Shown piece after piece: positions 34,891 to 49,484 of a DNA stretch of 64,000 nucleotides (within the stretch, counting starts at the first letter, position 1; every line of letters starts with the position of its first letter). The translations under genes and the position numbers were made by a program. The stretch lies in assembly GCF_019218885.1 (NCBI RefSeq), contig NZ_JAHUWT010000006.1, forward strand, positions 124,001 to 188,000, in the 5' to 3' direction. The DNA comes from Bordetella sp. BOR01 (GTDB taxonomy: Bacteria; Pseudomonadota; Gammaproteobacteria; Burkholderiales; Burkholderiaceae_B). Under the pieces are notes generated by a model. It worked only from the letters and a program-made list of their open reading frames with translations. It made no database searches and had not been told where the DNA came from.

Positions 34891-36393
34891 ATGCGTAGCC
34901 TCTGCCTCGCCCTGGCCGCGGCCGGCCTGCTTGCCAGCGCCGCCGCCACCGCGCAATCCACCATGCGTATCGGCCTGCAAGACGACCCCGACGTGCTCGA
35001 CCCGGCGCGCGCCCGCACCTTCGTGGGCCGCATCGTGTTCGCCTCGCTGTGCGACAAGCTGGTCGATATTTCGCCCGACCTGAAGTTCGTGCCACAGCTG
35101 GCCGAATCCTGGAAAACCAGCGACGACGGCATGACGCTGACGTTCACCTTGCGCGAAGGCGCCTTCTACCACGACGGCACGCCCATCGACGCGGCCTCGG
35201 TCAAGGCCAACCTGGACCGCGCCATGACGCTGCCCGACAGCAACCGCAAAAGCGAACTGGTCTCGGTGGCAAGCGTGGATGCGCCCGACGCGCGCACCGT
35301 GGTGCTGCACCTGAAAGAACCCGACGCCTCGCTGCTGTCGCAGTTGTCCGACCGCGCCGGCATGATGCTGTCGCCGGCCACCTTCGACAAAGACCCAGGC
35401 CGCACGCCGGTATGCTCCGGCCCGTACAAGTTCAAAGAACGCGTGCAGAACGACCGCATCGTACTGGAACGCTTCGACAAGTATTGGGACAAGGCCGACT
35501 ACCATTTCGACCAGGTCGTCTTCACGCCCATGCCCGACACCACGGTGCGGCTGAACAACCTGCGTTCGGGCGGGCTGGACATCATCGAGCGCGTGGCGCC
35601 CAGCGACGTCAAGACGGTGAAAGAAGATCCCAACCTGACGCTGGCGCCCGTCACCGGCCTGGGCTACCAGGCCATCTCGGTCAACATCGCCAACGGCGCG
35701 CGCGCCGACAACCCGCTGGCCAAAGACAAGCGGGTACGCCAGGCGCTGGACCTGGCCATCGACCGCGACGTGATCAACCAGGTGGTGGGCGAAGGCATGT
35801 TCCAGCCGGCCCACCAGCCCTTCCCGCCAGCCAGCTTTGCGTATGACAAGCGCTTCGAGCGCGCCGGCCGCGACCCGAAGAAGGCACGGGAACTGCTGAA
35901 GCAGGCGGGCCACGACCGCGTGAAGTTCGAGCTGACCTTCGGCAATAACACCACCATGCAGCAAGTATTCGAGCTGGTGCAGGCCATGGGCGCGGAGGCC
36001 GGATTCGATATCTCGCTGCGGCCCCTGGAATTCGCCTCGCTGCAATCGGCGCTGCCGCGCGGCGACTTCCAGGTCGGGCAGACGGGCTGGTCGGGCCGCG
36101 TGGACCCCAGCGGCAATATCTTCCAGTACATCACCTGCCAAGGCAGCCTGAATGACGGCAAGTATTGCGATGCCGGCATGGACAAGCTGCTGAACGAAGC
36201 GCGCAGCGTGGCCGACGAGGCCAAGCGCCGCGACCTGTACTCGCAGGCCATGCAGAAAATGCAGGAAGACGATCCGCGCATCTACTTGTTCTACCTGCCC
36301 TGGATCTTCGGCACCCAGGCCAAGGTGCAAGGCTTCGTGCCCTACCCCGACGGCCTGATCCGCCTGAAGGGCGTGACGGTGGCCAAGCAATGA
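34891..36393 (+). CDS. Solute-binding protein of an ABC transporter (SBP_bac_5, peptide/glutathione-like)
   Basis: 500 residues. A signal peptide (about 1-22, ending ATAQ) is followed by a family 5 extracellular solute-binding fold: DDPDVLDPARARTFVG, LKFVPQLAESWKTSDDGMTLTFTLREGAFYHDGTPIDA and RVRQALDLAIDRDVINQ. It typically binds peptides, opines or glutathione. No permease or ATPase genes adjoin; instead its stop overlaps the start of a gamma-glutamyltransferase (ATGA at 36390), hinting that the ligand is a gamma-glutamyl compound. Confidence 0.93.
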   Translation: MRSLCLALAAAGLLASAAATAQSTMRIGLQDDPDVLDPARARTFVGRIVFASLCDKLVDISPDLKFVPQLAESWKTSDDGMTLTFTLREGAFYHDGTPIDAASVKANLDRAMTLPDSNRKSELVSVASVDAPDARTVVLHLKEPDASLLSQLSDRAGMMLSPATFDKDPGRTPVCSGPYKFKERVQNDRIVLERFDKYWDKADYHFDQVVFTPMPDTTVRLNNLRSGGLDIIERVAPSDVKTVKEDPNLTLAPVTGLGYQAISVNIANGARADNPLAKDKRVRQALDLAIDRDVINQVVGEGMFQPAHQPFPPASFAYDKRFERAGRDPKKARELLKQAGHDRVKFELTFGNNTTMQQVFELVQAMGAEAGFDISLRPLEFASLQSALPRGDFQVGQTGWSGRVDPSGNIFQYITCQGSLNDGKYCDAGMDKLLNEARSVADEAKRRDLYSQAMQKMQEDDPRIYLFYLPWIFGTQAKVQGFVPYPDGLIRLKGVTVAKQ

Positions 36394-38213
36394 GCATCGA
36401 TTCCGGATACCGCATGTTCACCACCCGGCCCGAGATCCTGGGCACTTTCGGGGTGGTGACCTCGACGCACTGGCTGGCCAGCAGCGCCGGCATGTCGCTG
36501 CTGGAACGCGGCGGCAACGCCTTCGACGCCGCCGTGGCGGCGGGCTTCGTGCTGCAAGTGGTAGAGCCGCACCTGGTGGGTCCGGCCGGCGAAGTGCCGG
36601 TGGTGTTCCACTCGGTGCGCACCGGCCGCACCGAAGTCTTGTGCGGACAAGGCCCCACGCCGGCCGGCGCCACGCTGGAACACTACCGGTCGCTGGGCCT
36701 TGCCCTGATTCCGGGCAACGGCCTGCTGCCGGCGGTGATCCCCGGCGCCTTCGATGCCTGGATGCTGCTGCTGCGCGACCACGGCACCCTGCGCGTGCGC
36801 GACGTGCTGGAACCGGCCATTTATTATGCCGACCATGGCCACGCGCTGATGCCGCGCATCGCCAACACCATCGCCGGCCTGCAAGACTTCTTCAGCACGC
36901 ACTGGCCCACCACGGCGCAGGTGTACCTGCCGGGTGGCGCGCCGCCGCAAGCCCGCAAGCTGTTTCGCAACCCGGCGCTGGCCGAGACCTGGCGCCGCGT
37001 GCTGCGCGAGGCCGAGGCCGTGGGCGGCGACCGCGAACGCCAGATCGACGCCGCGCGCGATGCCTTCTACCGGGGCTTCGTGGCGCAAGCCATCGACCAG
37101 TACGCGCGCAACACCGAAGTCATGGACGAAAGCGGCACGCCGCACCGCGGCGTGCTCACCGCGCAAGACATGGCGGGCTGGTCGGCCACCTACGACACGC
37201 CGGCCACCTACGATTACCACGGCTATACCGTGGCCAAGGCGGGCGCCTGGAGTCAGGGGCCCGTGTTCCTGCAAACCCTGGCGCTGCTCAAGGGCCTGGA
37301 CTTGCAACAGCCCGGGCCGAACGGCGCCGAGTTCGTGCACCGCATCACCGAGGCCATGAAACTGGCCTTCGCCGACCGCGAGGCCTATTACGGCGACCCG
37401 TCGTTTGTGCGCGTGCCGCTGGAACACCTGCTGTCGGATGCCTACAACGACGAACGCCGCGCCCTGATCGACCAGCTGGCCTCGCACGAACTGCGGCCCG
37501 GCCGCGTACCGGGCTTCGACGCGCAAGTCGACCGGGTCATGGATGTGCTGGCACGCCTGTCCAAGGTGACGCCGGTGGGCTCGCCCAGCAGCGAACCCAC
37601 GCTGGCCGACATGCGCGCCTCGGCCAAGCGCGGCGACACCACGCACGTGGACGTGATCGACCGCTGGGGCAATATGGTGTCGGCCACGCCCTCGGGAGGC
37701 TGGCTGCAGTCTTCGCCGGTAATACCCGGACTGGGCTTCCCGCTGAACACGCGCGCGCAGATGTTCTGGCTGGAACCCGGCCTGCCCTGCACCCTGGCAC
37801 CGGGCAAGCGCCCCCGCACCACGCTGACGCCGTCGCTGGCGCTGCGCGACGGACAGCCCTACATGGTGTTCGGTACGCCTGGCGGCGACCAGCAGGAACA
37901 GTGGCAGTTGTTGCTGTTCCTGCGCCACGTGCACCACGGGCTGAACCTGCAGGAAGCCATCGACCAGCCCATGTCGCACACCATGCACTTCCCGTCGTCG
38001 TTCTACCCGCGCGACCGCAAGCCGGGGCACTTGGCGGTGGAAACCTCGTTCGGCCCCGAAGTCATCGCCGACCTGCGCGCGCGCGGCCACGTGATCGAGG
38101 AAGAACCGGAATGGTCCACCGGCCGTCTGACCGCCGCCTCGCGCGATGCCGACGGACTGCTGCACGCGGCAGCCACGCCCAGGCTGATGCAGGCGTATGC
38201 GGTGGGAAGGTAG
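36390..38213 (+). CDS. Gamma-glutamyltransferase family protein
   Basis: 607 residues from ATG overlapping the previous stop by 4 bases. The proenzyme layout is present: N-terminal VTSTHWLASSAGMSLLERGGNAFDAAVAAGFVL, and the autoprocessing threonine in RGDTTHVDVIDRWGNMVSATPSGG at about residue 416 (split here as two motifs, RGDTTHVDV and WGNMVSATPSGG). No signal peptide is evident, unlike periplasmic GGT, so it is likely cytosolic and acts on the imported ligand of the coupled binding protein. It could be a gamma-glutamyl hydrolase or a cephalosporin-acylase-like enzyme. Confidence 0.92.
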   Translation: MSIDSGYRMFTTRPEILGTFGVVTSTHWLASSAGMSLLERGGNAFDAAVAAGFVLQVVEPHLVGPAGEVPVVFHSVRTGRTEVLCGQGPTPAGATLEHYRSLGLALIPGNGLLPAVIPGAFDAWMLLLRDHGTLRVRDVLEPAIYYADHGHALMPRIANTIAGLQDFFSTHWPTTAQVYLPGGAPPQARKLFRNPALAETWRRVLREAEAVGGDRERQIDAARDAFYRGFVAQAIDQYARNTEVMDESGTPHRGVLTAQDMAGWSATYDTPATYDYHGYTVAKAGAWSQGPVFLQTLALLKGLDLQQPGPNGAEFVHRITEAMKLAFADREAYYGDPSFVRVPLEHLLSDAYNDERRALIDQLASHELRPGRVPGFDAQVDRVMDVLARLSKVTPVGSPSSEPTLADMRASAKRGDTTHVDVIDRWGNMVSATPSGGWLQSSPVIPGLGFPLNTRAQMFWLEPGLPCTLAPGKRPRTTLTPSLALRDGQPYMVFGTPGGDQQEQWQLLLFLRHVHHGLNLQEAIDQPMSHTMHFPSSFYPRDRKPGHLAVETSFGPEVIADLRARGHVIEEEPEWSTGRLTAASRDADGLLHAAATPRLMQAYAVGR

Positions 38214-39051: not shown

Positions 39052-39756
39052 CTACCCCCGCCGCACATAATCCGGATACCGCTCGCAGATCTCATCGACC
39101 TGGCTCAAGGTTCCCGACAAGTGCTCCCGCAGCGCCTCTTGCGCCCCCGCGGCATCCTGCCGTGCAATCGCATCCACAATGCGCTGGTGATCGCGCAGGA
39201 TCCGATCCGCCTTGCCGGCTTCCGGCAAATGCAGCCGCCGCAACCGGTCCACATGCCCGCTGTACCGCTGCTCCAGTTCCCACAGCCCCGCGACCCCGGC
39301 GGCCTGGTGCATTTCGCGATGAAACGCCCGGTCGGCATCCAGGAAGCCCTGGTAGCGGTCGGCGCCGCGATTGGCGCGCTGCATGTCGATATGCGCGCGC
39401 AGGCGCTCGACCAGGGCCGGGTCGTCGCGCTCGGCCAGCACGCGCACGATTTCCAGTTCCAGCGAACGGCGCAGGAAATGCGCCTGGCGCGCCGCGGCAA
39501 TATCGATGCGGCTGACCGCGGTGGTGTGCTGGGGGTAGATATCCACCAGGCCCTCGTCGCGCAACTGGCTCAATGCATCGCGGATCGGGGTCTGGCTCAG
39601 CCCGAAGGCCTCGGCCAGTTCGCCGCGCGCCAGGGGCGCACCGGGCTGCAATTCCAGCGACACGATCAGTTCGCGCAATTTTTCGAAGACCTGCGGCGCG
39701 GCATGGCGCGAGCGGTCCAGGCGCAGGTCGGCAGGCAGGGCTGGCAGCGATGACAT
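39052..39756 (-). CDS. GntR family transcriptional regulator (FadR/FCD type)
   Basis: 234 residues from the ATG at 39756. The N-terminal winged helix (QVFEKLRELIVSLELQPGAPLARGELAEAFGLSQ, split as two stretches at about 21-54) contains the SQTPIRDALSQLRDEGLV recognition region. The C-terminal FCD domain has metal or ligand-type residues in DRAFHREMHQAAG and DHQRIVDAIARQD. It is divergent from the dehydratase operon at 39862, with a perfect palindrome between them. It probably represses that operon until a sugar acid or related ligand binds. Confidence 0.92.
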   Translation of the reverse strand: MSSLPALPADLRLDRSRHAAPQVFEKLRELIVSLELQPGAPLARGELAEAFGLSQTPIRDALSQLRDEGLVDIYPQHTTAVSRIDIAAARQAHFLRRSLELEIVRVLAERDDPALVERLRAHIDMQRANRGADRYQGFLDADRAFHREMHQAAGVAGLWELEQRYSGHVDRLRRLHLPEAGKADRILRDHQRIVDAIARQDAAGAQEALREHLSGTLSQVDEICERYPDYVRRG

Positions 39757-39813
39757 AGGCGGTTTGGCAACAGGGATGAAGGCGATTGTACCGGCCGGCC
39801 TGGTCATTGACGT

Positions 39814-39827
39814 ACTAATATATTAGT
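39814..39827. promoter_or_regulatory. Perfect 14-base palindrome, likely GntR operator
   Basis: ACTAATATATTAGT is an exact dyad between the divergent GntR gene and the dehydratase gene, 34 bases before the latter's start. It overlaps AT-rich promoter-like DNA. FadR-type regulators bind short palindromes in such positions. Its core CTAATA/TATTAG also occurs, with a 5-base spacer, at 257-273. Confidence 0.75.
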
Positions 39828-39861
39828 GTTTTAATTTTGCAACCCTTATTCGGATAGCCTG

Positions 39862-41595
39862 ATGCCCCGCTCTTACGACGACCTGCGCAGCGCCCGCTGG
39901 ATGGCGCACGACGACCTGCGTTCCTTCGGCCACCGCTCGCGCATGATGCAAATGGGCTATGGCCCGCAAGACTGGGCCGGCCGCCCGGTCATTGCCATCA
40001 TCAATACCTGGTCCGACCTGAACCCTTGCCACAGCCACTTCAAGCAACGGGTGGACGACGTCAAGCGGGGCGTGCTGCAGGCCGGCGGCTTTCCGGTGGA
40101 ACTGCCCGCCATCTCGGTGTCGGAATCCTTCGTCAAGCCCACCACCATGCTCTATCGCAACTTCCTGGCTATGGAAACCGAAGAGCTGCTGCGCAGCCAT
40201 CCGGTAGATGGCGCAGTGCTCATGGGCGGCTGCGACAAGACCACGCCGGGCCTGATCATGGGCGCCATCAGCGCCAACCTGCCCTGTATCTACCTGCCCG
40301 CCGGCCCCATGCTGCGCGGCAACTGGAAAGGCAAGGTGCTGGGCTCGGGCTCCGACGCCTGGAAGCTGTGGGACGAGCGCCGTGCCGGCAACATCACCAA
40401 GCAGGACTGGGCCGAAGTCGAAGGCGGCATCGCCCGCAGCTACGGCACCTGCATGACCATGGGCACGGCCAGCACCATGACTGCCATCGCCGAATCCATC
40501 GGCCTGACGCTGCCCGGCGCATCGTCGATTCCGGCAGCCGACGTCAACCACATGCGCATGTCGGCCGAATGCGGGCGCCGCGCGGTCGAGATGGTGTGGG
40601 AAGACCAGACGCCGCAAAAGATACTGACGCAGGCCTCGTTCATGAACGCCATCAATGTGGCCATGGCCATGGGCTGTTCCACCAATGCCATCGTGCACCT
40701 GGTAGCCATGTCGCGCCGCGCCGGGTGCGCCGTGGGGCTGGAAGACTTCGACGCGGCCAGCCGCAAGGTGCCGGTCATTGCCAATATCCGGCCCAGCGGC
40801 GACACCTACCTGATGGAAGACTTCTATTACGCCGGCGGCCTGCCCGGCCTGATGTCGCGCCTGGCCGATGCCCACCTGGACCTGTCGGCGCACACGGTCA
40901 CGGGCCGCAGCCTGGGCGAGAACATCGCGGGCGCCGAGGTCTACAACGACGACGTGATCCGCCCGCTGGACCAGGCTATCTACCAGGAAGGCGCGCTGGC
41001 CGTACTGAAAGGCAACCTGGCGCCCGATGGCTGCGTGATCAAGCCCAGCGCCTGCGCGCCGCGCTATCTGCAGCACACCGGCCCGGCGCTGGTATTCGAC
41101 GACTACCCCAGCATGAAAGCGGCGGTCGAAGACGAAAACCTGGATGTCAGCGCCGACCACATACTGATCCTGCGCAATGCCGGCCCGCAAGGCGGCCCGG
41201 GCATGCCCGAATGGGGCATGCTGCCCATTCCGGTCAAGCTGGTGAAAGCAGGCGTGCGCGACATGCTGCGCCTGTCCGATGCCCGCATGAGCGGCACCAG
41301 CTACGGCGCCTGCATCCTGCACGCGGCACCCGAGGCCTATGTGGGCGGCCCGCTGGCGCTGGTGCGCACGGGCGATCTCATCACCGTGGACGTGCCCGGC
41401 CGCGGCATCCACCTGAACATCAGCGACGCGGAGCTGGCCGCGCGCCGCGCCGCCTGGACCCCACCGCCCAGGCGCTACGAACGCGGCTACGGCTGGATGT
41501 ACGCCCAGCACATTCTGCAGGCCAACGACGGCTGCGACTTCGACTTCCTGGAAACCGGCTTCGGCGCGCCCGTGGCCGAGCCCGACATTTTCTGA
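39862..41595 (+). CDS. IlvD/Edd family dehydratase (sugar-acid dehydratase-like)
   Basis: 577 residues, full family length. Iron-sulfur cysteines and motifs are visible: NTWSDLNPCHSHF (about 53-65), MGGCDKTTPG (about 123-132) and SYGTCMTMGTASTM (about 193-206), plus the C-terminal LSDARMSG-type motif. Members dehydrate dihydroxy acids or sugar acids to 2-keto-3-deoxy acids. With the downstream RraA-like aldolase and Bug receptor, a sugar-acid or aldonate route fits better than branched-chain amino acid synthesis. First gene of a GntR-controlled operon. Confidence 0.92.
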   Translation: MPRSYDDLRSARWMAHDDLRSFGHRSRMMQMGYGPQDWAGRPVIAIINTWSDLNPCHSHFKQRVDDVKRGVLQAGGFPVELPAISVSESFVKPTTMLYRNFLAMETEELLRSHPVDGAVLMGGCDKTTPGLIMGAISANLPCIYLPAGPMLRGNWKGKVLGSGSDAWKLWDERRAGNITKQDWAEVEGGIARSYGTCMTMGTASTMTAIAESIGLTLPGASSIPAADVNHMRMSAECGRRAVEMVWEDQTPQKILTQASFMNAINVAMAMGCSTNAIVHLVAMSRRAGCAVGLEDFDAASRKVPVIANIRPSGDTYLMEDFYYAGGLPGLMSRLADAHLDLSAHTVTGRSLGENIAGAEVYNDDVIRPLDQAIYQEGALAVLKGNLAPDGCVIKPSACAPRYLQHTGPALVFDDYPSMKAAVEDENLDVSADHILILRNAGPQGGPGMPEWGMLPIPVKLVKAGVRDMLRLSDARMSGTSYGACILHAAPEAYVGGPLALVRTGDLITVDVPGRGIHLNISDAELAARRAAWTPPPRRYERGYGWMYAQHILQANDGCDFDFLETGFGAPVAEPDIF

Positions 41596-41642
41596 CTGCG
41601 GCCCCTGCCCCGCCTCTACCCGGATTTGATCCCGAGATCGCC

Positions 41643-42362
41643 ATGACCACCCTTTCCGACACCACCCGCGCCCGCCTGGCCGCGGTCAGCACCGCCACGC
41701 TTTGCACCGCGCTGTTCAAGCGCGGCCTGCGCAACCAATTCATCCAGGACGTGCGCCCGCTGAACCCCAGCCTGCCCAACATGGTGGGCCCGGCCTACAC
41801 GCTGCGCTACATACCCGCGCGCGAAGACCTGAACACCATCCAGGTATTCGAAGACCCGAAGCACCCGCAACGCGTGGCCATCGAGTCCTGCCCCGAAGGC
41901 GCCGTGCTGGTCATGGACAGCCGCAAGGACGCGCGCGCCGCCTCGGCCGGCTCCATCCTGGTGACACGCCTGATGAAGCGCGGCGTAGCCGGCGTGGTCA
42001 CCGACGGCGGCTTCCGAGATTCGCCCGAGATCGCCCGCCTGGGCATCCCCGCCTATCACCAGCGGCCCTCGGCGCCCACCAACCTGACGCTGCACCAGGC
42101 CCTGGACCTGAACGTGCCTATCGGCTGCGGCGACGTGGCGGTGTTTCCGGGCGACATCATGGTGGGCGATGGCGAAGGCGTGGTGGTGATCCCCGCCCAG
42201 ATCGCCGACGAACTGGCGCGCGAGGCCGAGGAAATGACCGCGTTCGAGGACTTCGTCACCAGCGAAGTCCTGGCTGGCCGCAGCATCGCCGGCCTGTATC
42301 CGCCCACCGACCCCGCCACGCGCGAACGCTATGCCGCGTGGCGCACGCAGCACGGGCGCTGA
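41643..42362 (+). CDS. RraA-like family protein (HMG/CHA-type class II aldolase)
   Basis: 239 residues from the ATG at 41643. The RraA/4-hydroxy-4-methyl-2-oxoglutarate aldolase fold is marked by VGPAYTLRYIPAREDL, VVTDGGFRDSPEIARLGIP (catalytic Arg-Asp, about 120-138) and FPGDIMVGDGEGVVVIP. Retention of the TDGxxRD residues suggests a true pyruvate aldolase or oxaloacetate decarboxylase rather than the RNase E inhibitor RraA. It would split the keto acid formed by the dehydratase. 47 bases downstream of the dehydratase gene. Confidence 0.88.
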   Translation: MTTLSDTTRARLAAVSTATLCTALFKRGLRNQFIQDVRPLNPSLPNMVGPAYTLRYIPAREDLNTIQVFEDPKHPQRVAIESCPEGAVLVMDSRKDARAASAGSILVTRLMKRGVAGVVTDGGFRDSPEIARLGIPAYHQRPSAPTNLTLHQALDLNVPIGCGDVAVFPGDIMVGDGEGVVVIPAQIADELAREAEEMTAFEDFVTSEVLAGRSIAGLYPPTDPATRERYAAWRTQHGR

Positions 42363-42409
42363 AGGCCAGGCCGCCAGCTCCCCCACAACAACCCACAAAG
42401 GAGACAACC

Positions 42410-43399
42410 ATGAACCCGATCCGACGGCGCCACCTGGCGCTGACCTTCGCCGCGGCCACGCTGGCCGCCTGCGGCCTGCCCGCCCAGGCAGCCGGCTGGC
42501 CCACCGACAAGCCCATTTCCTACGTGGTGCCCTTTACCGTGGGCGGATCCACCGATGTGGTGGGCCGCCTGCTGGCGCAGAAGCTGGGCGAACGGCTGAA
42601 ACAGAGCGTCGTAGTGGAAAACAAGCCTGGCGCGGCCGGCGCCATCGGCGCCACCTATGTGGCCAAGGCGCCCGCCGACGGCTACACGCTGTTTGGCGGC
42701 ACTATCAGCACGCATGCCATCAATGCCAGCCTGTACAAGAACCTGCGCTACGACCCGGTCAAGGATTTTGAACCCGTGTCGCTGGTAGCCACGCTGCCCA
42801 ATGTGCTGCTGGTCGATCCCAACCTGGGCGTGAACTCGGTGGCCGACCTGATCGCCCTGCTCAAGCGAGATCCGGCCAAGCGCACGTTCGCATCGTCCGG
42901 GCCGGGCACGTCCACGCACCTGGCGGGCGAGCTGTTCGCCGACACCATCGACGTACCGCTGACGCACGTGCCGTACAAGGGCACGCCGCCCGCCATGGTG
43001 GATGTGTCCTCGGGCGCGGTAACCTTCATGTTCGACCAGATGACAGCCGCCCTGCCGCTGCTGCAAAACGGCAAGCTGAAGCTGCTGGCCGTGACCACGC
43101 CCAAGCGCATCGCGCTGTCGCCCGATACCCCCACCATGGAAGAAGCCGGCGTGCCGGGCTTCCAGATGGCATCCTGGCAGGCCGTGTACGCCCCCAAGGG
43201 CACGCCCAAGCCCATCGTCGATCGCCTGTCCCAGGAAATCGCCGCAATCCTGAAAGAGCCCGATGTGCAGGAAAAGCTCGGCAAGACCATGGGGATGGAG
43301 CTGGTGGGCAGCAGCCCCGAGGCCCTGCGAGACCTGATGGCCGCGGAAATTCCGCGTTGGGCGGAAGTGGTGCAGAAATCGGGCGCCAGCGTCGATTGA
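42410..43399 (+). CDS. Bug family (TctC) solute receptor
   Basis: 329 residues from an ATG with AAAGGAGA 5 bases upstream. A signal peptide (about 1-27; a Cys at about 22 in TLAACGLPAQA might be a lipid site) precedes WPTDKPISYVVPFTVGGSTD, VVENKPGAAGA and PADGYTLFGG. It closes the dehydratase/aldolase operon and likely binds that pathway's sugar-acid substrate in the periplasm. No membrane carrier genes lie nearby. Confidence 0.93.
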   Translation: MNPIRRRHLALTFAAATLAACGLPAQAAGWPTDKPISYVVPFTVGGSTDVVGRLLAQKLGERLKQSVVVENKPGAAGAIGATYVAKAPADGYTLFGGTISTHAINASLYKNLRYDPVKDFEPVSLVATLPNVLLVDPNLGVNSVADLIALLKRDPAKRTFASSGPGTSTHLAGELFADTIDVPLTHVPYKGTPPAMVDVSSGAVTFMFDQMTAALPLLQNGKLKLLAVTTPKRIALSPDTPTMEEAGVPGFQMASWQAVYAPKGTPKPIVDRLSQEIAAILKEPDVQEKLGKTMGMELVGSSPEALRDLMAAEIPRWAEVVQKSGASVD

Positions 43400-43426: not shown

Positions 43427-44251
43427 TTATATCTGCGGCTTGGGCATCGTCGGGAACGGCTCGACAACCGAATGCGCCGCGCGCCAGGCTTGCGCCAGGT
43501 CGCCTGCCCGGTAAAACGCCACGCCTGGCCGCTGCGCCAGGTCGCGCAGGAAATCTGCCACCATGCGCACGCGCGGCAAGCGGCTGCTGCCGACATCGCC
43601 GCGCGTATGCAGCGTCAGGTTCACATACCCGCCCGCGCAGTACTGCGCATCGGCCTCTTCCGCCCAGGCCCTGGCCACGCGGACATCGGTATGACGATGG
43701 GTATAGAACTTGGCGTCGGTCAGGTAATCGAACACCGGCAGCTCGACCAGCACGGCGCCGCCGCTGCCCATCACATAGGGGGCGTCGTCGTCCTGCGCAC
43801 TGCTGTCGTAGGCATAGCCCAACGCAGCCAGCGCCGGCAGCGTAGCCTGCGTTACCAGCCCGTTGGCGGCACGCCAGCCGCGCGGTGCGTTGCCGGTCAG
43901 GCGTTGCAGGGTTTCGCGGTCGCGGCCCAGCTGGTCCAGGGTCTCGGGCTCGCCGGCCCGCGCCCGCACATAGCCGCGCACCGCCACCTCGTGGCCCCCG
44001 TCCAGCATGGCCTGCAGCACATGCGGATGCTTGCCGATCTCGGATGGCATGACAAAGAACGTGGCCTTTGCCTCGTTCTCGGCCAGCGCATCCAGCAGGC
44101 GCCAGATACCTACGCGCGCGCCATAGCGGCCATAGGAATAACGGCCGAACAGCCCGGCGCTGCCAGCTTCCTGCACATCGATGGCGGCCACATCCACGTT
44201 GATACCCACCACCACTGGACACGCGGCCAATTGATTGTCGGTCTTGCTCAT
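43427..44251 (-). CDS. NodB-type polysaccharide deacetylase homologue with lost metal site
   Basis: 274 residues, homologous to its upstream neighbour (shared KATFFVMPSEIG, GYAYDSSAQDDD and so on). The zinc-binding HxxxH motif is replaced: HEVAVRGYVRARAG has Arg92 and Arg96 where the partner has His111 and His115, and the RSPSG motif reads RAANG. The first Asp (about 20) and His87 remain. It is probably non-catalytic or uses other chemistry, and may form a complex with the active paralogue, whose stop overlaps its start (44248-44251). Confidence 0.82.
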   Translation of the reverse strand: MSKTDNQLAACPVVVGINVDVAAIDVQEAGSAGLFGRYSYGRYGARVGIWRLLDALAENEAKATFFVMPSEIGKHPHVLQAMLDGGHEVAVRGYVRARAGEPETLDQLGRDRETLQRLTGNAPRGWRAANGLVTQATLPALAALGYAYDSSAQDDDAPYVMGSGGAVLVELPVFDYLTDAKFYTHRHTDVRVARAWAEEADAQYCAGGYVNLTLHTRGDVGSSRLPRVRMVADFLRDLAQRPGVAFYRAGDLAQAWRAAHSVVEPFPTMPKPQI

Positions 44252-45126
44252 ACGCGTACCTCTTCGTAGCTTTGCGGATCAGCAGCCACCCACTGCTGGA
44301 TTTCCGACAGCGTGGCAAAGTGCACGCCCTGGTGGCGCTGGATATGGCGCAGCGTGTCCTCTACCGCGCGCACCCGGCTGGGCGTGCCCGATCCCCACCC
44401 CGCGCGCGGATGCACGGTCAGCATGAAAAAGCCGCCCAGCGCGTAGCGCTCGTCGAATTCCCGCTTCCATTGGTCCACCACTTCGGACACCGGCGTCATC
44501 GAGAAATTGAAGAACGGGAAGTCGTCCAGGCTGTAGGTGTTGTTGGGAATTTCCACCATCGACTGCCCGCTGCCCAAATCCAGCATATAGGGCGTGTCGG
44601 CATCCTTGTCGCTGCTGTCGTAGCGGTACCCCAGTTCATGCAGTACCGGCAGCGTCACGCCGGTCTTCTGGCCCGATGGCGAACGCCAACCGCACGGCGC
44701 CTGGCCCAGCAGGTCGCCCAGGATCGAATGGGTCAGCTTCAGCCGGCGCGTTTCTTCGGCAGCTTCGAACAGCGTGCCTTCATGCACGTAGCCGTGCGCG
44801 CCGATCTCGTGGCCGGCGCGCTGGATGGCGCGCACGGCCTCGGGCGAGCACTCGGCATCGTAGCCGGGCACGAAGAACGTGGCTGGAATGCCCAGGCGCT
44901 CCAGCATATCCAGATGGCGCGGCACACCGCGCCGGGCCGAGTAGCGGCCGGCCGAATGCATGCCGAAGGGCTCCAGGCCCTTGCCGACTTCGTTGCCGGT
45001 GCCGTCGAAATCGACCGTATAGGCCACCAGGCAGCGCGCCTGCCTGGGCCAGGCCGGCATGGCCGTACTCGGGGCCTGGCCCGGCAGGCGCACGCCGCGG
45101 GTCAGGGTAGGTTCAGGCATGGACAT
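44248..45126 (-). CDS. Polysaccharide deacetylase (NodB/PuuE-type), intact
   Basis: 292 residues from the ATG at 45126 with AAGGAAA upstream. NodB fold: an Asp-containing first motif VAYTVDFDGTGNE (about 34-46), ATFFVPGYDAE, and the zinc motif HEIGAHGYVHEG (His106, His111, His115), then PCGWRSPSGQ. It resembles HpPgdA/allantoinase-like deacetylases that act on amides rather than only on polymers. It lies between the C45 hydrolase and the degenerate paralogue in one operon, so a shared amide substrate is likely. Confidence 0.9.
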   Translation of the reverse strand: MSMPEPTLTRGVRLPGQAPSTAMPAWPRQARCLVAYTVDFDGTGNEVGKGLEPFGMHSAGRYSARRGVPRHLDMLERLGIPATFFVPGYDAECSPEAVRAIQRAGHEIGAHGYVHEGTLFEAAEETRRLKLTHSILGDLLGQAPCGWRSPSGQKTGVTLPVLHELGYRYDSSDKDADTPYMLDLGSGQSMVEIPNNTYSLDDFPFFNFSMTPVSEVVDQWKREFDERYALGGFFMLTVHPRAGWGSGTPSRVRAVEDTLRHIQRHQGVHFATLSEIQQWVAADPQSYEEVRV

Positions 45127-45137
45127 GGCGTTTCCTT

Positions 45138-46250
45138 TCAGTCTGCGAACCCGTAGGTCGTGAAGGTGGAATCGACGGCCGGCAGCGCGGCCACTTCCAT
45201 TTCGGCATCGGCCGGACGCATCACCACCGTGGCCACGGTGGCGCTCAGGTTGCTGGCCAGGTTCATGCGCGGCGGCCGGCACACCGACCACGGCGAGGCA
45301 TAGTCATCCAGCAGGGCTGCCTTGATCTCGGCCACGCCGATCCCGCCCAGGTGCGGACGCAGCAACTGCTTGACGCGCATGTCGCGATACAGCGTGTCGG
45401 GCGTGGACGCGATGCCGGTGTCTTTCAGCTTGCCCAGCGCCACCGGGCTCAGCCAGTGGTTGGCGTGCACCAGCAGGCCATCTTCCGCATGCAGCAGGAA
45501 GGTCTCGTCGGGTGCACACTCGAAGTTCAGCGCCACCCCGCCACGGTGGCTGATGATCATGTTGTTCGAGCCCGACTTCAACGTGACGTAGGCGGCCCGC
45601 ATGGCCAGCGCCATGTGCTCTTGTTCCAGGATCTTGCGGCGGATCAGCGGCAGCGGCACGCCCACGCGCCGGTAATCCAGGCTGGACTCCAGGAAGTTGG
45701 CCGTCAGGGAAATGCCGGCCGCATTCATGCCCGAGCGGGCCAGGCCGCCTGCCTCGGTAAAAGTCAGGATGTCGGGGCCGTCGTCGCGGCGAATGCGCAG
45801 CACCACCGCGGTCTCGGCGCATTCGTATTTCCAGTCCCAGTTCTGCGCGTGCACCAGCGAGCCATCCGCCGCGGCCTCGGGCAGCACGACCACACCGGTG
45901 CAGCCGTCCAGGTCGCCCGCGCCGATCAGCCGCTCGCGCAGCGCCGGGCTGGCTGCCAGCTTCAGGATCTCGGTACGGGCATTCAGCAACACCACATCGT
46001 CAAACGGTACATCGGCGCCCTGCGCGATGCCGCGCATCTCGGCCACATGGGCCGGATCGAACTTTTCCATCACCGGCAGGTAATCGCGCACCACCGCGGC
46101 CAGCGCGGCGCGGTCCAGTTCCAGCGTCTGCAATTGCGAGGTGTAATGGCCAATGCCCTTGTGGATGCGCTCGGCGGCCTGGCGGCCATATTGCTTGCCA
46201 CGGGCCTCGGGCGCCCCCGAGACTTCGATAAGGGGAAACGCTGCAGTCAT
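45138..46250 (-). CDS. C45 family Ntn hydrolase (acyl-CoA:6-APA acyltransferase-like)
   Basis: 370 residues. The self-processing cysteine sits at about 117 in AGDLDGCTGVVVLPE, preceded by a domain with LIEVSGAPEARGKQYG and followed by VHAQNWDWKYECAE, GLARSGMNAAGISLTANF and NHWLSP, typical of the C45 penicillin acyltransferase family. Members cleave or form amide bonds of peptides and acyl amino acids. With two deacetylase homologues and two Bug receptors, it fits a route for uptake and hydrolysis of an N-acyl or peptide-like compound. Confidence 0.9.
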   Translation of the reverse strand: MTAAFPLIEVSGAPEARGKQYGRQAAERIHKGIGHYTSQLQTLELDRAALAAVVRDYLPVMEKFDPAHVAEMRGIAQGADVPFDDVVLLNARTEILKLAASPALRERLIGAGDLDGCTGVVVLPEAAADGSLVHAQNWDWKYECAETAVVLRIRRDDGPDILTFTEAGGLARSGMNAAGISLTANFLESSLDYRRVGVPLPLIRRKILEQEHMALAMRAAYVTLKSGSNNMIISHRGGVALNFECAPDETFLLHAEDGLLVHANHWLSPVALGKLKDTGIASTPDTLYRDMRVKQLLRPHLGGIGVAEIKAALLDDYASPWSVCRPPRMNLASNLSATVATVVMRPADAEMEVAALPAVDSTFTTYGFAD

Positions 46251-46304
46251 GTTGCTCCTTGGTTAGTCCATTGCCCCGCGCCCACGGCAGGCCCGGGGTG
46301 CGAT

Positions 46305-47288
46305 TCAGATCAGCCTGGCACGGCGCAGCAAGTCGCCGGATTCATCATAGGTACGCCGCGCATAGGCGGCGAACTCCTCCGGGTTGCGGTACCACTGCGG
46401 CTGGTTCAGGGTGGCCAGCACGCGCTCGATGGCGGGCTCGCCCATGGCGCGATGAAACGCATGGTGCAGTTTCTGCACCACGTCGGGCGCGATGCCCTGC
46501 GGACCCAGCAGTCCCATCGGGGCCGACAACACCAGATCGTAGCCCTGCTCGGTGGCAGTCGGAACCTTTGGCCAGGCCGGCAAGCGCGAGGCGCCCAACG
46601 CCCCCAGCAGGCGCAGCTTGCCGCTCTGGATATACGGCACATAAGTACCCACCGAATCCATCACGACATCCACATAACCGCCCATCAGCGAGGTAGCCAT
46701 GTCGGCGCCGCTCTTGAAGGGAATGTGCTGGAAGCGCACCCCGTACTTTTCCTGGAACGGCACCATGGTCACCGGCACCAGCGTAGTGGGATCGCCGGCC
46801 GCATACTGGATCTCGCCGGGACGCGTCTTGCCGGCCTGCATGAAATCGGCGAACGATTTCAGCGGCGAGTCGGCGCGCACCACCGCGCAGAATTCCAGGC
46901 TGGTCATGCCGATGACGTAGGTAAAGTCTTTCAGCGGTGAAAAGCCGATTTTCGGTTCCAGCCACGGCGCGCGGAACGTCGAGCCGGTGGACATCGCCAG
47001 CGTGTAGCCGTCGGGCCGCGCCCGCGCTGCCAGGCTGGCCGACAAGTTGCCGCCGGCGCCAGGCTTGTTCTCGATGATGACAGCCTGGCCCAGGTACGGT
47101 GCGGCGGTCACGCTCAGCACGCGCATGTACTGGTCGACCGAGCCGCCGGCCCCGAAGGGACACAGCAGCGTCACCGGCCGCGCAGGAAAATCCTGCGCCC
47201 ATGCGGCGCGCCCTGCCAGGCCCAGCGCGGTGCCCGCGCCCAGCGCGTGCAGCGCACGGCGGCGCCCGGGTGAATCCAGTCTTTGCAT
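46305..47288 (-). CDS. Bug family (TctC) solute receptor
   Basis: 327 residues from the ATG at 47288. A Tat-like or Sec signal (RRRALHALGAGTALGLAGRAAWA, about 9-31) precedes FPARPVTLLCPFGAGGSVDQ, VIIENKPGAGGN and ARPDGYTLAMST. It is the second of two receptor genes in tandem and lies 54 bases before the C45 gene. It should bind the amide compound processed by the operon or a related ligand. Confidence 0.92.
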   Translation of the reverse strand: MQRLDSPGRRRALHALGAGTALGLAGRAAWAQDFPARPVTLLCPFGAGGSVDQYMRVLSVTAAPYLGQAVIIENKPGAGGNLSASLAARARPDGYTLAMSTGSTFRAPWLEPKIGFSPLKDFTYVIGMTSLEFCAVVRADSPLKSFADFMQAGKTRPGEIQYAAGDPTTLVPVTMVPFQEKYGVRFQHIPFKSGADMATSLMGGYVDVVMDSVGTYVPYIQSGKLRLLGALGASRLPAWPKVPTATEQGYDLVLSAPMGLLGPQGIAPDVVQKLHHAFHRAMGEPAIERVLATLNQPQWYRNPEEFAAYARRTYDESGDLLRRARLI

Positions 47289-47380
47289 AGCGAGTCTTCC
47301 TGTCCTGGAGAATGCCGGCCGCGGCCGGCAACGGCGAGCCGCCCCAGGCGGCCCGGCTACGTGCCCGCGCAGAAGCGCGC

Positions 47381-48415
47381 CTACGACGGCTTGATGTTGC
47401 CGGCCTTGACCAGCTTGCCCCACTTGGCCGACTCTTCCCTGATGAACGTGGCCATTTCTTCAGGCGTCGTGTACTGGGTTTCCAGGCCGCCATTCTTCAG
47501 GTTGTCGAAGGCAGGCGATGCCAGGGTCTTTTGCACCGCCTGGTTCAGGGCCTGTGTCGCCGCTTTCGGGGTGCCGGCCGGCACCATGATGCCGCCCCAG
47601 CCGATCGCCACGATGCCGGGAAAACCGCTTTCGGCAATGGTAGGCACGTCGGGCAGCACCGGCGAGCGCTCGGCGCCCGTGGTGGCCAGCGCAATGGCCT
47701 TGCCCGAGCGGATGTACGGCAACTGGTTGATGACTGTATCCATGAAAATCGGGAACTGCCCGCCCAGGAAGTCGCTGACCGCCGCCGCGGCGCTGCGGTA
47801 TGGCACGCCAGGCATCTCCAGCTTGGCCTCGCTTTTCAGCAGCTCGGTGGCCAGGTGGCTGGAACTGCCGTTGGCCGTGATGCCATAAAAATATTTGCCC
47901 GGGCTGGCACGCACCAGCGCCACCAGGTCCTTGAAATTCCGGGCTTCGAAATCTGGGCGCACCACCAGCACGTTGTTGTACTTGCACACCAGCGATACCG
48001 GGTCGAAATCCTTTTGGGGGTTGTACGGCAGGTCCGGGTACAGGAACTGGTTGACCGTGTGCGTGCCGGTGATGGCAAACAGCAGCGTGTGGCCATCGGG
48101 CTGGGCGCGGCTGACGGCCTGGGCGCCGATGATGCCGGCCGCGCCAGGCATGTTCTTGACCACGACGTTGTGCGGCAGGTGTTCGGCCAGGCCTTGCGCG
48201 GCCACGCGCGCCACCACGTCGGTGCCGGCACCGGGGCCGCCGGGCACTACCAATTCGATTGGCGCCGAACCGGGGTATTGCGCCGCCGCCAGCGCGCGGC
48301 CGGCACCCAGGCCCTGCAGCAGGATCGCGGGGCCGGCTGCCGCGCCGCCGGCCAATATGCGTCGGCGCAAAGACGAAAAACCGGCGTGCGAATGCGTATT
48401 CGACTTCATCGACAT
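47381..48415 (-). CDS. Bug family (TctC) solute receptor
   Basis: 344 residues. A twin-arginine-like signal (SSLRRRILAGGAAAGPAILLQG) is followed by YPGSAPIELVVPGGPGAGTD, VVVKNMPGAAGI and AQPDGHTLLFA, with a more divergent first motif than most Bug proteins here. It is the first gene of the five-gene operon divergent from LysR. Two receptors in one operon may bind two related solutes or the same solute with different affinity. Confidence 0.92.
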   Translation of the reverse strand: MSMKSNTHSHAGFSSLRRRILAGGAAAGPAILLQGLGAGRALAAAQYPGSAPIELVVPGGPGAGTDVVARVAAQGLAEHLPHNVVVKNMPGAAGIIGAQAVSRAQPDGHTLLFAITGTHTVNQFLYPDLPYNPQKDFDPVSLVCKYNNVLVVRPDFEARNFKDLVALVRASPGKYFYGITANGSSSHLATELLKSEAKLEMPGVPYRSAAAAVSDFLGGQFPIFMDTVINQLPYIRSGKAIALATTGAERSPVLPDVPTIAESGFPGIVAIGWGGIMVPAGTPKAATQALNQAVQKTLASPAFDNLKNGGLETQYTTPEEMATFIREESAKWGKLVKAGNIKPS

Positions 48416-48557: not shown

Positions 48558-49484
48558 ATGAGCAGCATCCGGGTCTTGCGCAGTTTCATCGAGGTGGCGC
48601 GCTGCGGTTCGTTCGCAGCGGCCTCGGAACACGTCTCGCTGACGCCCGCCGCGGTGGGCCTGCAGATCCACAGCCTGGAAAGCGACCTGGGCTACCCCTT
48701 GTTCGACCGCATCGGCAAGAGCATCACGCTGAACCAGCGCGGCCATCGGCTGGTGCCGCGCATCCAGCAGTTGCTGATGCAGTACGACGCGCTGCGCCTG
48801 GAAGAGGCCGACCCGAAAGACCTGGCGGGTTCCATCAAGGTGGCGTCCATCGCGACCTCGATGAGCATGGTGGTCAAGGCGGTACTGCGCATTCGCCGCC
48901 AGTACCCGCGCCTGTCGGTCGAGCCGGGCATCAGTTATTCGGGCGACCTGGTATCGCGCGTGAAGGAAGGCGAGCTCGATGCCGCCGTTTCGGTCAAGAA
49001 CGCCCATAAAGTGCCGGCCGGCGTGCTATGGACCCACTTGTATCGCGAACCGCTGGTATTCATCGCCAGCAAGCACGCCGCACGCCAGGGCGATATCGGG
49101 CAATTGCTGGCGCAGCGCCTGTTCCTGCGGGTGTCGCGCAGTTCCAACACCGGCACGCTGATCGACGAATTCATGCGCCGCCGCCACCTGAAGGCGGCCG
49201 AGTTCCTGGAAATGAACGCCATGCGCACCATCGTGGACATGGTCAAGGAAGACATGGGCGTGACCATCCTGCCGCTGCCGCGCGGCACCGGTTGGGACCA
49301 CGATCCCGAACTGCACGTGCAAGGCTTCGACGACCCGACCGCACACCGCAGCATCGGACTGTTCGAAAACGAAAGCCGCTGCTTTCTCAGCAGCGTGCTG
49401 CGCGAATACCTGGTGGAAGAACTGGGGCGCGAATCGCCTGCAGGCCCCCCTGCAGGTACCGCCCGCGATACCCCACCGGCGTGA
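48558..49484 (+). CDS. LysR family transcriptional regulator
   Basis: 308 residues. The N-terminal helix-turn-helix (VARCGSFAAASEHVSLTPAAVGLQIHSLE, in parts about 12-40) is followed by a co-inducer domain. It is divergent from the Bug/Bug/C45/deacetylase operon with 142 bases between starts, so it probably activates it in response to the amide or acid substrate. Downstream is an unrelated DUF1428 gene 63 bases away. Confidence 0.92.
   Translation: MSSIRVLRSFIEVARCGSFAAASEHVSLTPAAVGLQIHSLESDLGYPLFDRIGKSITLNQRGHRLVPRIQQLLMQYDALRLEEADPKDLAGSIKVASIATSMSMVVKAVLRIRRQYPRLSVEPGISYSGDLVSRVKEGELDAAVSVKNAHKVPAGVLWTHLYREPLVFIASKHAARQGDIGQLLAQRLFLRVSRSSNTGTLIDEFMRRRHLKAAEFLEMNAMRTIVDMVKEDMGVTILPLPRGTGWDHDPELHVQGFDDPTAHRSIGLFENESRCFLSSVLREYLVEELGRESPAGPPAGTARDTPPA

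Follow-up and report, generated by a model that had tools for sequence, protein, structure and literature searches.

The window analyzed here, a 64,000-nucleotide stretch of DNA from Bordetella sp. BOR01 (contig NZ_JAHUWT010000006.1, positions 124,001 to 188,000), carries an operon whose last two genes encode homologous proteins that we designated A and B. A has an intact metal triad, and B is a homologue of A that lacks it. Judged from sequence, the A-B pair is real and widely conserved. A lay directly upstream of B in all 61 loci that were recovered when 84,980 species genomes were scanned, and the Asp/His/His triad was present in A of all 62 pairs at these loci and complete in B of none. 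We propose, with moderate confidence, that A and B make up an obligate cytoplasmic heteromeric amidohydrolase of the PuuE/HpPgdA branch, in which A would be the catalytic subunit with the sole metal site and B a metal-less subunit. We infer the A-B complex, these roles of A and B, a pathway that they share, and an amide substrate. A description of the A-B pair or of the gene set was not found in the open-license literature among the matches listed. An earlier interpretation of this DNA from its letters alone (the sequence-only reading) had known of no described pathway with this gene set.

Recurrence of the A-B pair across genomes

The pattern used in the scan was built from 16 B sequences, and from B only. 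At least nine of the 61 loci are those from which the seeds came, three genomes were found twice, and the loci come from 58 record titles. B proteins unlike the 16 seeds, such as that of Rhizobium etli, escape the scan. For loci without annotation, genes were called in a simple way, and these calls served only to establish arrangement. The triad in A was read by script in 60 pairs and by eye in the other two, L134, for which the script had picked the wrong frame, and L128, which contains a frame shift. A 4-base overlap between A and B was called in 56 of the 62 pairs. The recurrence of the pair, with the same split, at every locus found with a B-only pattern is more than chance. The sequence-only reading had made its proposal depend on conservation of the two genes together elsewhere, and that is what these loci revealed.

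Searches closer to the window gave the same arrangement. Among 268 genomes of the family, near B genes (63 to 83% identity) were found in six further genomes, always with A and a C45 hydrolase gene beside them, and more distant pairs were present in other groups. When A was the query in the same 268 genomes, 39 A genes with at least 44% identity were found in 36 genomes, and all 39 (counted by eye) adjoined a B gene. Matches to A at 42% identity or less belong to another group; the one examined (L056) had no B beside it and adjoined a Bug gene. Among 399 genomes of the order, 24 had a B match at 1e-40, and in all 10 of these with a match below 1e-100 an A-like match adjoined it.

Several records deserve comment. 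Pairs titled Mycobacterium sp. KBS0706 (L116) group with Stella, Microvirga, and Achromobacter pairs, and this title looks doubtful, as do those of two metagenome-assembly loci titled Bordetella parapertussis (L086 and L096). The A gene of Mesorhizobium tianshanense (L128:9173-9968) is split over two frames in its record, so that either the assembly is at fault there or the gene itself is broken. The genome from which the window comes has 14 places similar to B.

Fold, active-site residues, and evolution

A and B had been described as NodB-type deacetylases in the sequence-only reading. The broad assignment stood, because Pfam Polysacc_deac_1 (PF01522) matched A with 61 bits and B with 57.1 bits, both above the cutoff of 23.1. 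The narrower name was too specific. The NodB chitooligosaccharide deacetylase model (TIGR04243) scored 28.1 for A and 22.8 for B, below its cutoff of 240, and the PuuE allantoinase model (TIGR03212) scored 80.4 and 55.3, below its cutoff of 424.6. The closest solved structure by sequence was 3rxz for both A (E value, 5e-40) and B (5e-20), and HpPgdA and PuuE types came next. AlphaFold monomer models had predicted local distance difference test (pLDDT) scores of 89.1 for A and 90.8 for B and a predicted template modeling (pTM) score of 0.90 each. Foldseek searches with both models again placed 3rxz at the top, then the HpPgdA and PuuE types, with chitin and peptidoglycan deacetylases farther off. 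Pfam and Foldseek assign the NodB fold to A and B, and not the ureohydrolase fold of metformin hydrolase proper.

The metal triad of A consists of Asp41, His111, and His115, accompanied by Asp39, Arg148, and His239. At the equivalent sites B has Asn18 for the base Asp and Asp20, Arg92, and Arg96 for the ligands, and it retains Arg127 in motif 3 and His215 in the last motif. The motif letters quoted in the sequence-only reading were all correct, with HGYVHE beginning at residue 111 of A and RGYVRA at residue 92 of B. However, that reading missed a loss in motif 1, where A has TVDFDG and B has INVDVA, so that the first Asp is replaced by Asn18. In HpPgdA, according to the available part of its structural description, the metal ligands are Asp14, His86, and His90, and a water molecule is held by Asp12 and His247 (PMC3084791). 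Assigned from motif order, Asp14, His86, His90, Asp12, and His247 would correspond to Asp41, His111, His115, Asp39, and His239 of A.

The two proteins differ in how these positions are conserved. The triad columns were invariant in 45 A sequences, and the same three columns held 3, 5, and 9 kinds of residue in 45 B sequences. Across these 45 B sequences Arg127 was found in 45, Asn18 in 43, and His215 in 41, and 28 columns were invariant. In the 62 pairs, the base-Asp position was Asn in 59 B proteins, and the residues at the ligand positions were Asp-Arg-Arg, Asp-Arg-Leu, Gln-Gln-Phe, Gln-His-Met, His-His-Phe, and others, including Asp-Arg-His in L097 and His-His-His in L108. The sequence-only reading had called for a check on whether HxxxH and RxxxR segregate consistently. 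The letters themselves do not, but intact and broken triads do, the latter with many different replacements. RxxxR was rejected as a new motif because R..R occurs in only 4 of the 62 pairs and the window, all nearest relatives, and other B proteins have R..L, Q..F, H..M, or H..F. R. etli B was considered as a possible intact enzyme on account of its HGYAHE; this was also rejected because its motif 1 contains Asn at the base position and Gln at the first ligand position, followed by His and His at the other two.

When the first ligand position of B was Asp, the second was Arg in 22 of 24 cases, and when it was not Asp, the second was Arg in none of 38. We rejected coevolution as an explanation because the tree offers a single independent contrast, which makes this pairing one event. 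One clade of A (the second pair of L092 and L112 to L134 except L133) carries His in place of the base Asp together with Cys in place of the motif-3 Arg (HDHHCH). It accounts for 21 of the 60 scripted pairs, with L128 and L134 added by eye. As far as the alignment tells, the base-Arg couple is exchanged in this clade and the metal triad is kept.

In a tree built from 41 A and 41 B sequences with 9 outgroup rows, all A fell on one side of a branch with support of 100 and all B on one side of a branch with support of 79. Without the four most remote outgroup rows the support was 99 for A and 99 for B (quick method). By this tree, A and B are each of single origin. Their subgroups largely match each other. 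Pairwise distances of A and B were correlated (r, 0.94; 59 pairs; 0 of 2,000 permutations as high), a correlation that shared ancestry alone could give. In 14 comparisons the ratio of nonsynonymous to synonymous substitution rates (dN/dS) was 0.04 to 0.24 for A and 0.07 to 0.35 for B, higher for B in 12 of them, with dS near 1 in some. Going by these ratios, B is under purifying selection and is not decaying. On a tree of 41 B proteins, the three ligand positions required at least 6, 9, and 13 changes, whereas Asn18 required 3, His215 required 5, and Arg127 required none. These changes, together with the residue counts, indicate that B lost the metal once, early, and that the former ligand sites have since drifted with the rest of the protein under selection. 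Such a pattern would fit a structural or regulatory subunit, and the retained Arg and His would leave room for ligand binding or a metal-free reaction.

Gene neighborhood and candidate substrate

The sequence-only reading had described two Bug receptors, a C45 family N-terminal nucleophile (Ntn) hydrolase, and two deacetylase homologues in one operon. All five genes were found on the minus strand where it had placed them (Table 1), in the order Bug1-Bug2-C45-A-B, with gaps of 92, 54, and 11 bases from Bug1 through A and the ATGA overlap that it had noted between A and B. The C45 gene scored 285.7 bits with the NCBIfam model C45_proenzyme (NF040521; cutoff, 85), and the Cys of its DGCTG motif is residue 117, as had been predicted for the nucleophile. 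With score and Cys both present, it is assigned to C45. Its relative in the Protein Data Bank (PDB) is 2x1d, a fungal acyltransferase (E value, 8.8e-17).

Table 1. Features of the A-B operon region, in coordinates of the window
Feature	Coordinates	Strand	Basis or remark
Bug1, first operon gene, encoding a TctC-type periplasmic receptor	47381..48415	-	Pfam TctC, 228.3 bits; present in near relatives
Bug2, second TctC-type receptor	46305..47288	-	Pfam TctC, 218 bits; present in six near relatives (L038-L043)
C45 family Ntn hydrolase, predicted nucleophile Cys117 (DGCTG)	45138..46250	-	NCBIfam C45_proenzyme
A, PuuE/HpPgdA-like hydrolase with intact metal triad	44248..45126	-	Pfam Polysacc_deac_1
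B, homologue of A without the metal triad	43427..44251	-	Pfam Polysacc_deac_1
ATGA, stop of A overlapping start of B	44248..44251	-	Sequence
Codons of A His111-His115 (HGYVH)	44782..44796	-	Computed from coordinates
Codons of B Arg92-Arg96 (RGYVR), same alignment columns as HGYVH of A	43964..43978	-	Computed; alignment
LysR-type regulator, divergent from the operon	48558..49484	+	Pfam LysR_substrate and HTH_1

A C45 homologue (34 to 92% identity to two reference C45 proteins) was present in 50 of the 61 loci, and the nucleophile Cys was found in all 48 in which that part is covered, as xGCT in 42 and ECTT in 6. Three of the six members of the ECTT subgroup (34 to 38% identity; L081, L083, L084, L086, L087, and L091) were scanned, and all three pass the C45 cutoff. 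The position and strand of C45 vary by locus. It precedes A in the window type, follows B in the Achromobacter type, precedes a Bug gene in another group, and lies beyond an ATP-binding cassette (ABC) transporter in Bradyrhizobium. The possibility that C45 is a common gene found nearby by chance was rejected because the 6.18-Mb genome of the window has only two C45 genes, the second of which gave no tblastn match to the window C45 at 1e-10. The same genome has at least 150 TctC genes and six TctA genes, and many relatives have an oligopeptide ABC transporter instead, so Bug receptors were rejected as a mark of the system. The C45 neighbor is therefore informative, and the Bug neighbors are not. 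Uptake genes of one kind or the other (Bug or oligopeptide ABC) surround the pair in relatives. The proposal of the sequence-only reading, an enzyme-pseudoenzyme pair that acts with C45 on an imported compound, is supported in part. What the comparison bears out is the constant company of intact and degenerate homologues, the same split everywhere, the frequent C45 neighbor, and the surrounding uptake genes; the Bug receptors do not define the system.

Related C45 genes also occur on annotated plasmids, together with oligopeptide ABC transporters, GntR regulators, an alpha/beta hydrolase, or an aminotransferase, often without A and B; three more records lacked usable annotation. For example, plasmid C45 genes in L061 to L069 and L073 have an oligopeptide ABC transporter and GntR and no A-B in the annotated stretch; L068 is a conjugative Klebsiella pneumoniae plasmid.

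The neighborhoods of relatives provide a hint about the substrate. In R. etli the gene order is C45, a 108-residue protein, a transaminase, A, B, and a succinate-semialdehyde-type dehydrogenase. The R. etli transaminase and one from Microvirga both pass the AptA model (620.5 and 635.5; cutoff, 500), and AptA-type transaminase homologues were found in 11 of the 61 loci. The substrates of AptA are short beta-amino acids. A parallel is offered by Tan, which we take to be a relative of C45. The available part of its description states that Tan cleaves beta-alanyl-histamine and releases beta-alanine (PMC4694695). Because of the AptA-type transaminase and the parallel with Tan, a beta- or omega-amino acid conjugate would be a reasonable guess for the substrate, and no more than that.

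The divergent LysR-type gene is a probable regulator of the operon from Bug1 to B; homologues with 61 to 90% identity occupy the matching position in L074 to L079. On its other side, B ends 27 bases from the end of a plus-strand Bug gene (42410-43399) that is part of another cluster. That cluster (39052-43399) comprises a GntR/FCD regulator on the minus strand and, on the plus strand, an IlvD/Edd-type dehydratase, a presumably RraA-like protein, and the Bug receptor. In Bordetella genomosp. 2 (L074), a Bug match and an RraA-like match are likewise found past B. Farther away, at 34891-38213, an SBP_bac_5 peptide-type binding protein comes immediately before a gamma-glutamyltranspeptidase.

Proposed roles of A and B and comparison with known systems

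In the heteromeric amidohydrolase that we propose, A would hold its metal with Asp41, His111, and His115, use Asp39 and His239 as acid/base groups, and cleave a C-N bond in some small molecule that the cell has imported. B would be a duplicated subunit that no longer has a metal site or the base Asp and was kept for completing the oligomer and for shaping or gating the active site of A, as neighboring subunits do in HpPgdA. The stop/start overlap would provide matched amounts of A and B, and C45 would cut another amide of the imported compound or of its product.

Several observations weigh against this proposal. The structural models cover A and B as monomers, operon inheritance without contact can yield co-inheritance of A and B, and no fused A-B gene was found among the genomes searched. 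The pocket of B was not simply abandoned, because Arg127 and His215 are kept, and L108 B, with its three His residues, might still bind a metal. A of the HDHHCH clade may not work canonically because the base Asp and the Arg are lost. Furthermore, 11 of the 61 loci show no C45 in the DNA covered; in three of these (L085, L089, and L098) that DNA ends within 4 kb on one side.

One alternative, which we consider possible but unlikely, is that B contains a second, metal-free active site like that of PuuE allantoinase, so that the pair would be a two-site enzyme carrying out two successive or alternative hydrolyses. The retention of Asn18, Arg127, and His215 in B would be consistent with this, as would the alignments with PDB entries, in which PuuE has H and W at the positions of A His111 and His115 and Asn and Glu at those of Asp39 and Asp41 (the stretch with the latter two had a score of only 1.2 bits). 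The accessible portion of one source calls PuuE a non-metal-dependent enzyme (PMC10967932). However, the former ligand positions of B vary even among near relatives (R/R, R/Q, and R/K), unlike a catalytic site, B falls far below the PuuE model cutoff, and the Arg kept in B is absent from PuuE in the alignment.

A and B might also act apart, as two enzymes or as an enzyme and a ligand-binding helper in one pathway, with coupled translation and no binding. We regard this as rather improbable. C45 is co-inherited too, with no contact expected, and the conserved pocket in B would suit a separate function. However, no A gene without B was seen among the 39 in the family genomes, the A-B order and 4-base overlap are much stricter than the placement of C45, whose position and strand change, and relatives of this fold are tetramers. 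That B is a recent pseudogene or a relic of tandem duplication is very improbable: lost metal ligands and faster divergence than A would be expected of one, but this is already contradicted by the selection evident in its dN/dS, by the open frames in the pairs read, and by a single ancient origin, with subgroups that run in parallel between A and B.

A bolder form of the two-site idea, doubtful in our estimation, is that A and B represent an unrecognized class of two-subunit amidohydrolases of the PuuE/NodB fold. In this class a metal-free Asn/Arg/His site would have taken the place of the metal in B, with an Asp-Arg pair at the former metal place in one large branch. One metal site and one metal-free site would then act in sequence, with C45, and their substrate would be a peptide-like conjugate of a beta- or omega-amino acid.

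If the heteromeric amidohydrolase that we favor is confirmed, the pair would be of an age that allowed it to spread through both Beta- and Alphaproteobacteria and to form several subgroups. Such "polysaccharide deacetylases" should then not be called cell-wall enzymes or assayed as single genes without caution. C45, A, B, and the uptake genes, with the AptA-type transaminase in relatives, would form a conserved catabolic module whose substrate can be searched for directly, and the 62 pairs with graded loss of the metal site would be material for studying how subunits cease catalysis.

The known systems that resemble A-B do so in different respects. PuuE allantoinase belongs to the fold branch of A and B, is active without metal, and has a small cyclic amide-type substrate; unlike A-B it is homomeric and differs in its site residues. 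CE4 pseudoenzymes such as BA3943 belong to the same superfamily and have lost catalytic or metal residues (PDB titles; PMC10967932). Those pseudoenzymes are distant (13 to 18% identity) and, unlike B, are not described, in the part of that source available, as constantly paired with an intact homologue. In trypanosomatid deoxyhypusine synthase, an unrelated enzyme from unrelated organisms, an impaired and a dead paralogue form an active heterotetramer, as far as the available text goes (PMC3663545).

The nearest characterized metal-binding relative in fold is HpPgdA (HP0310) of Helicobacter pylori, the triad of which is equivalent to that of A. The part of its description at hand also gives it a small closed site and no signal peptide, features shared with A-B, and a homotetrameric state, the active site being covered by an arm that reaches over from the next subunit (PMC3084791). 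Unlike A-B, HpPgdA is a single gene with no degenerate partner.

The closest parallel in organization is metformin hydrolase (MetCaCb/MefH). The accessible parts of two descriptions report tandem homologues, alpha with all metal ligands and beta with several lost, each inactive alone, that form an alpha-beta hexamer with metal only in alpha (PMC11271267; PMC11399263). As in A-B, the paired homologues fall into two well-separated clades of common origin, with the ligands kept in one and lost in the other, and metformin hydrolase is a catabolic enzyme, as we propose for A-B. The two differ in that metformin hydrolase has a ureohydrolase fold with two nickel ions, and its heteromer and activity are proven, whereas for A-B they are deduced. 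If our interpretation of A-B is correct, the pair would be a second, independent case in which a catabolic metal hydrolase has turned into an obligate pair of a working and a metal-less subunit.

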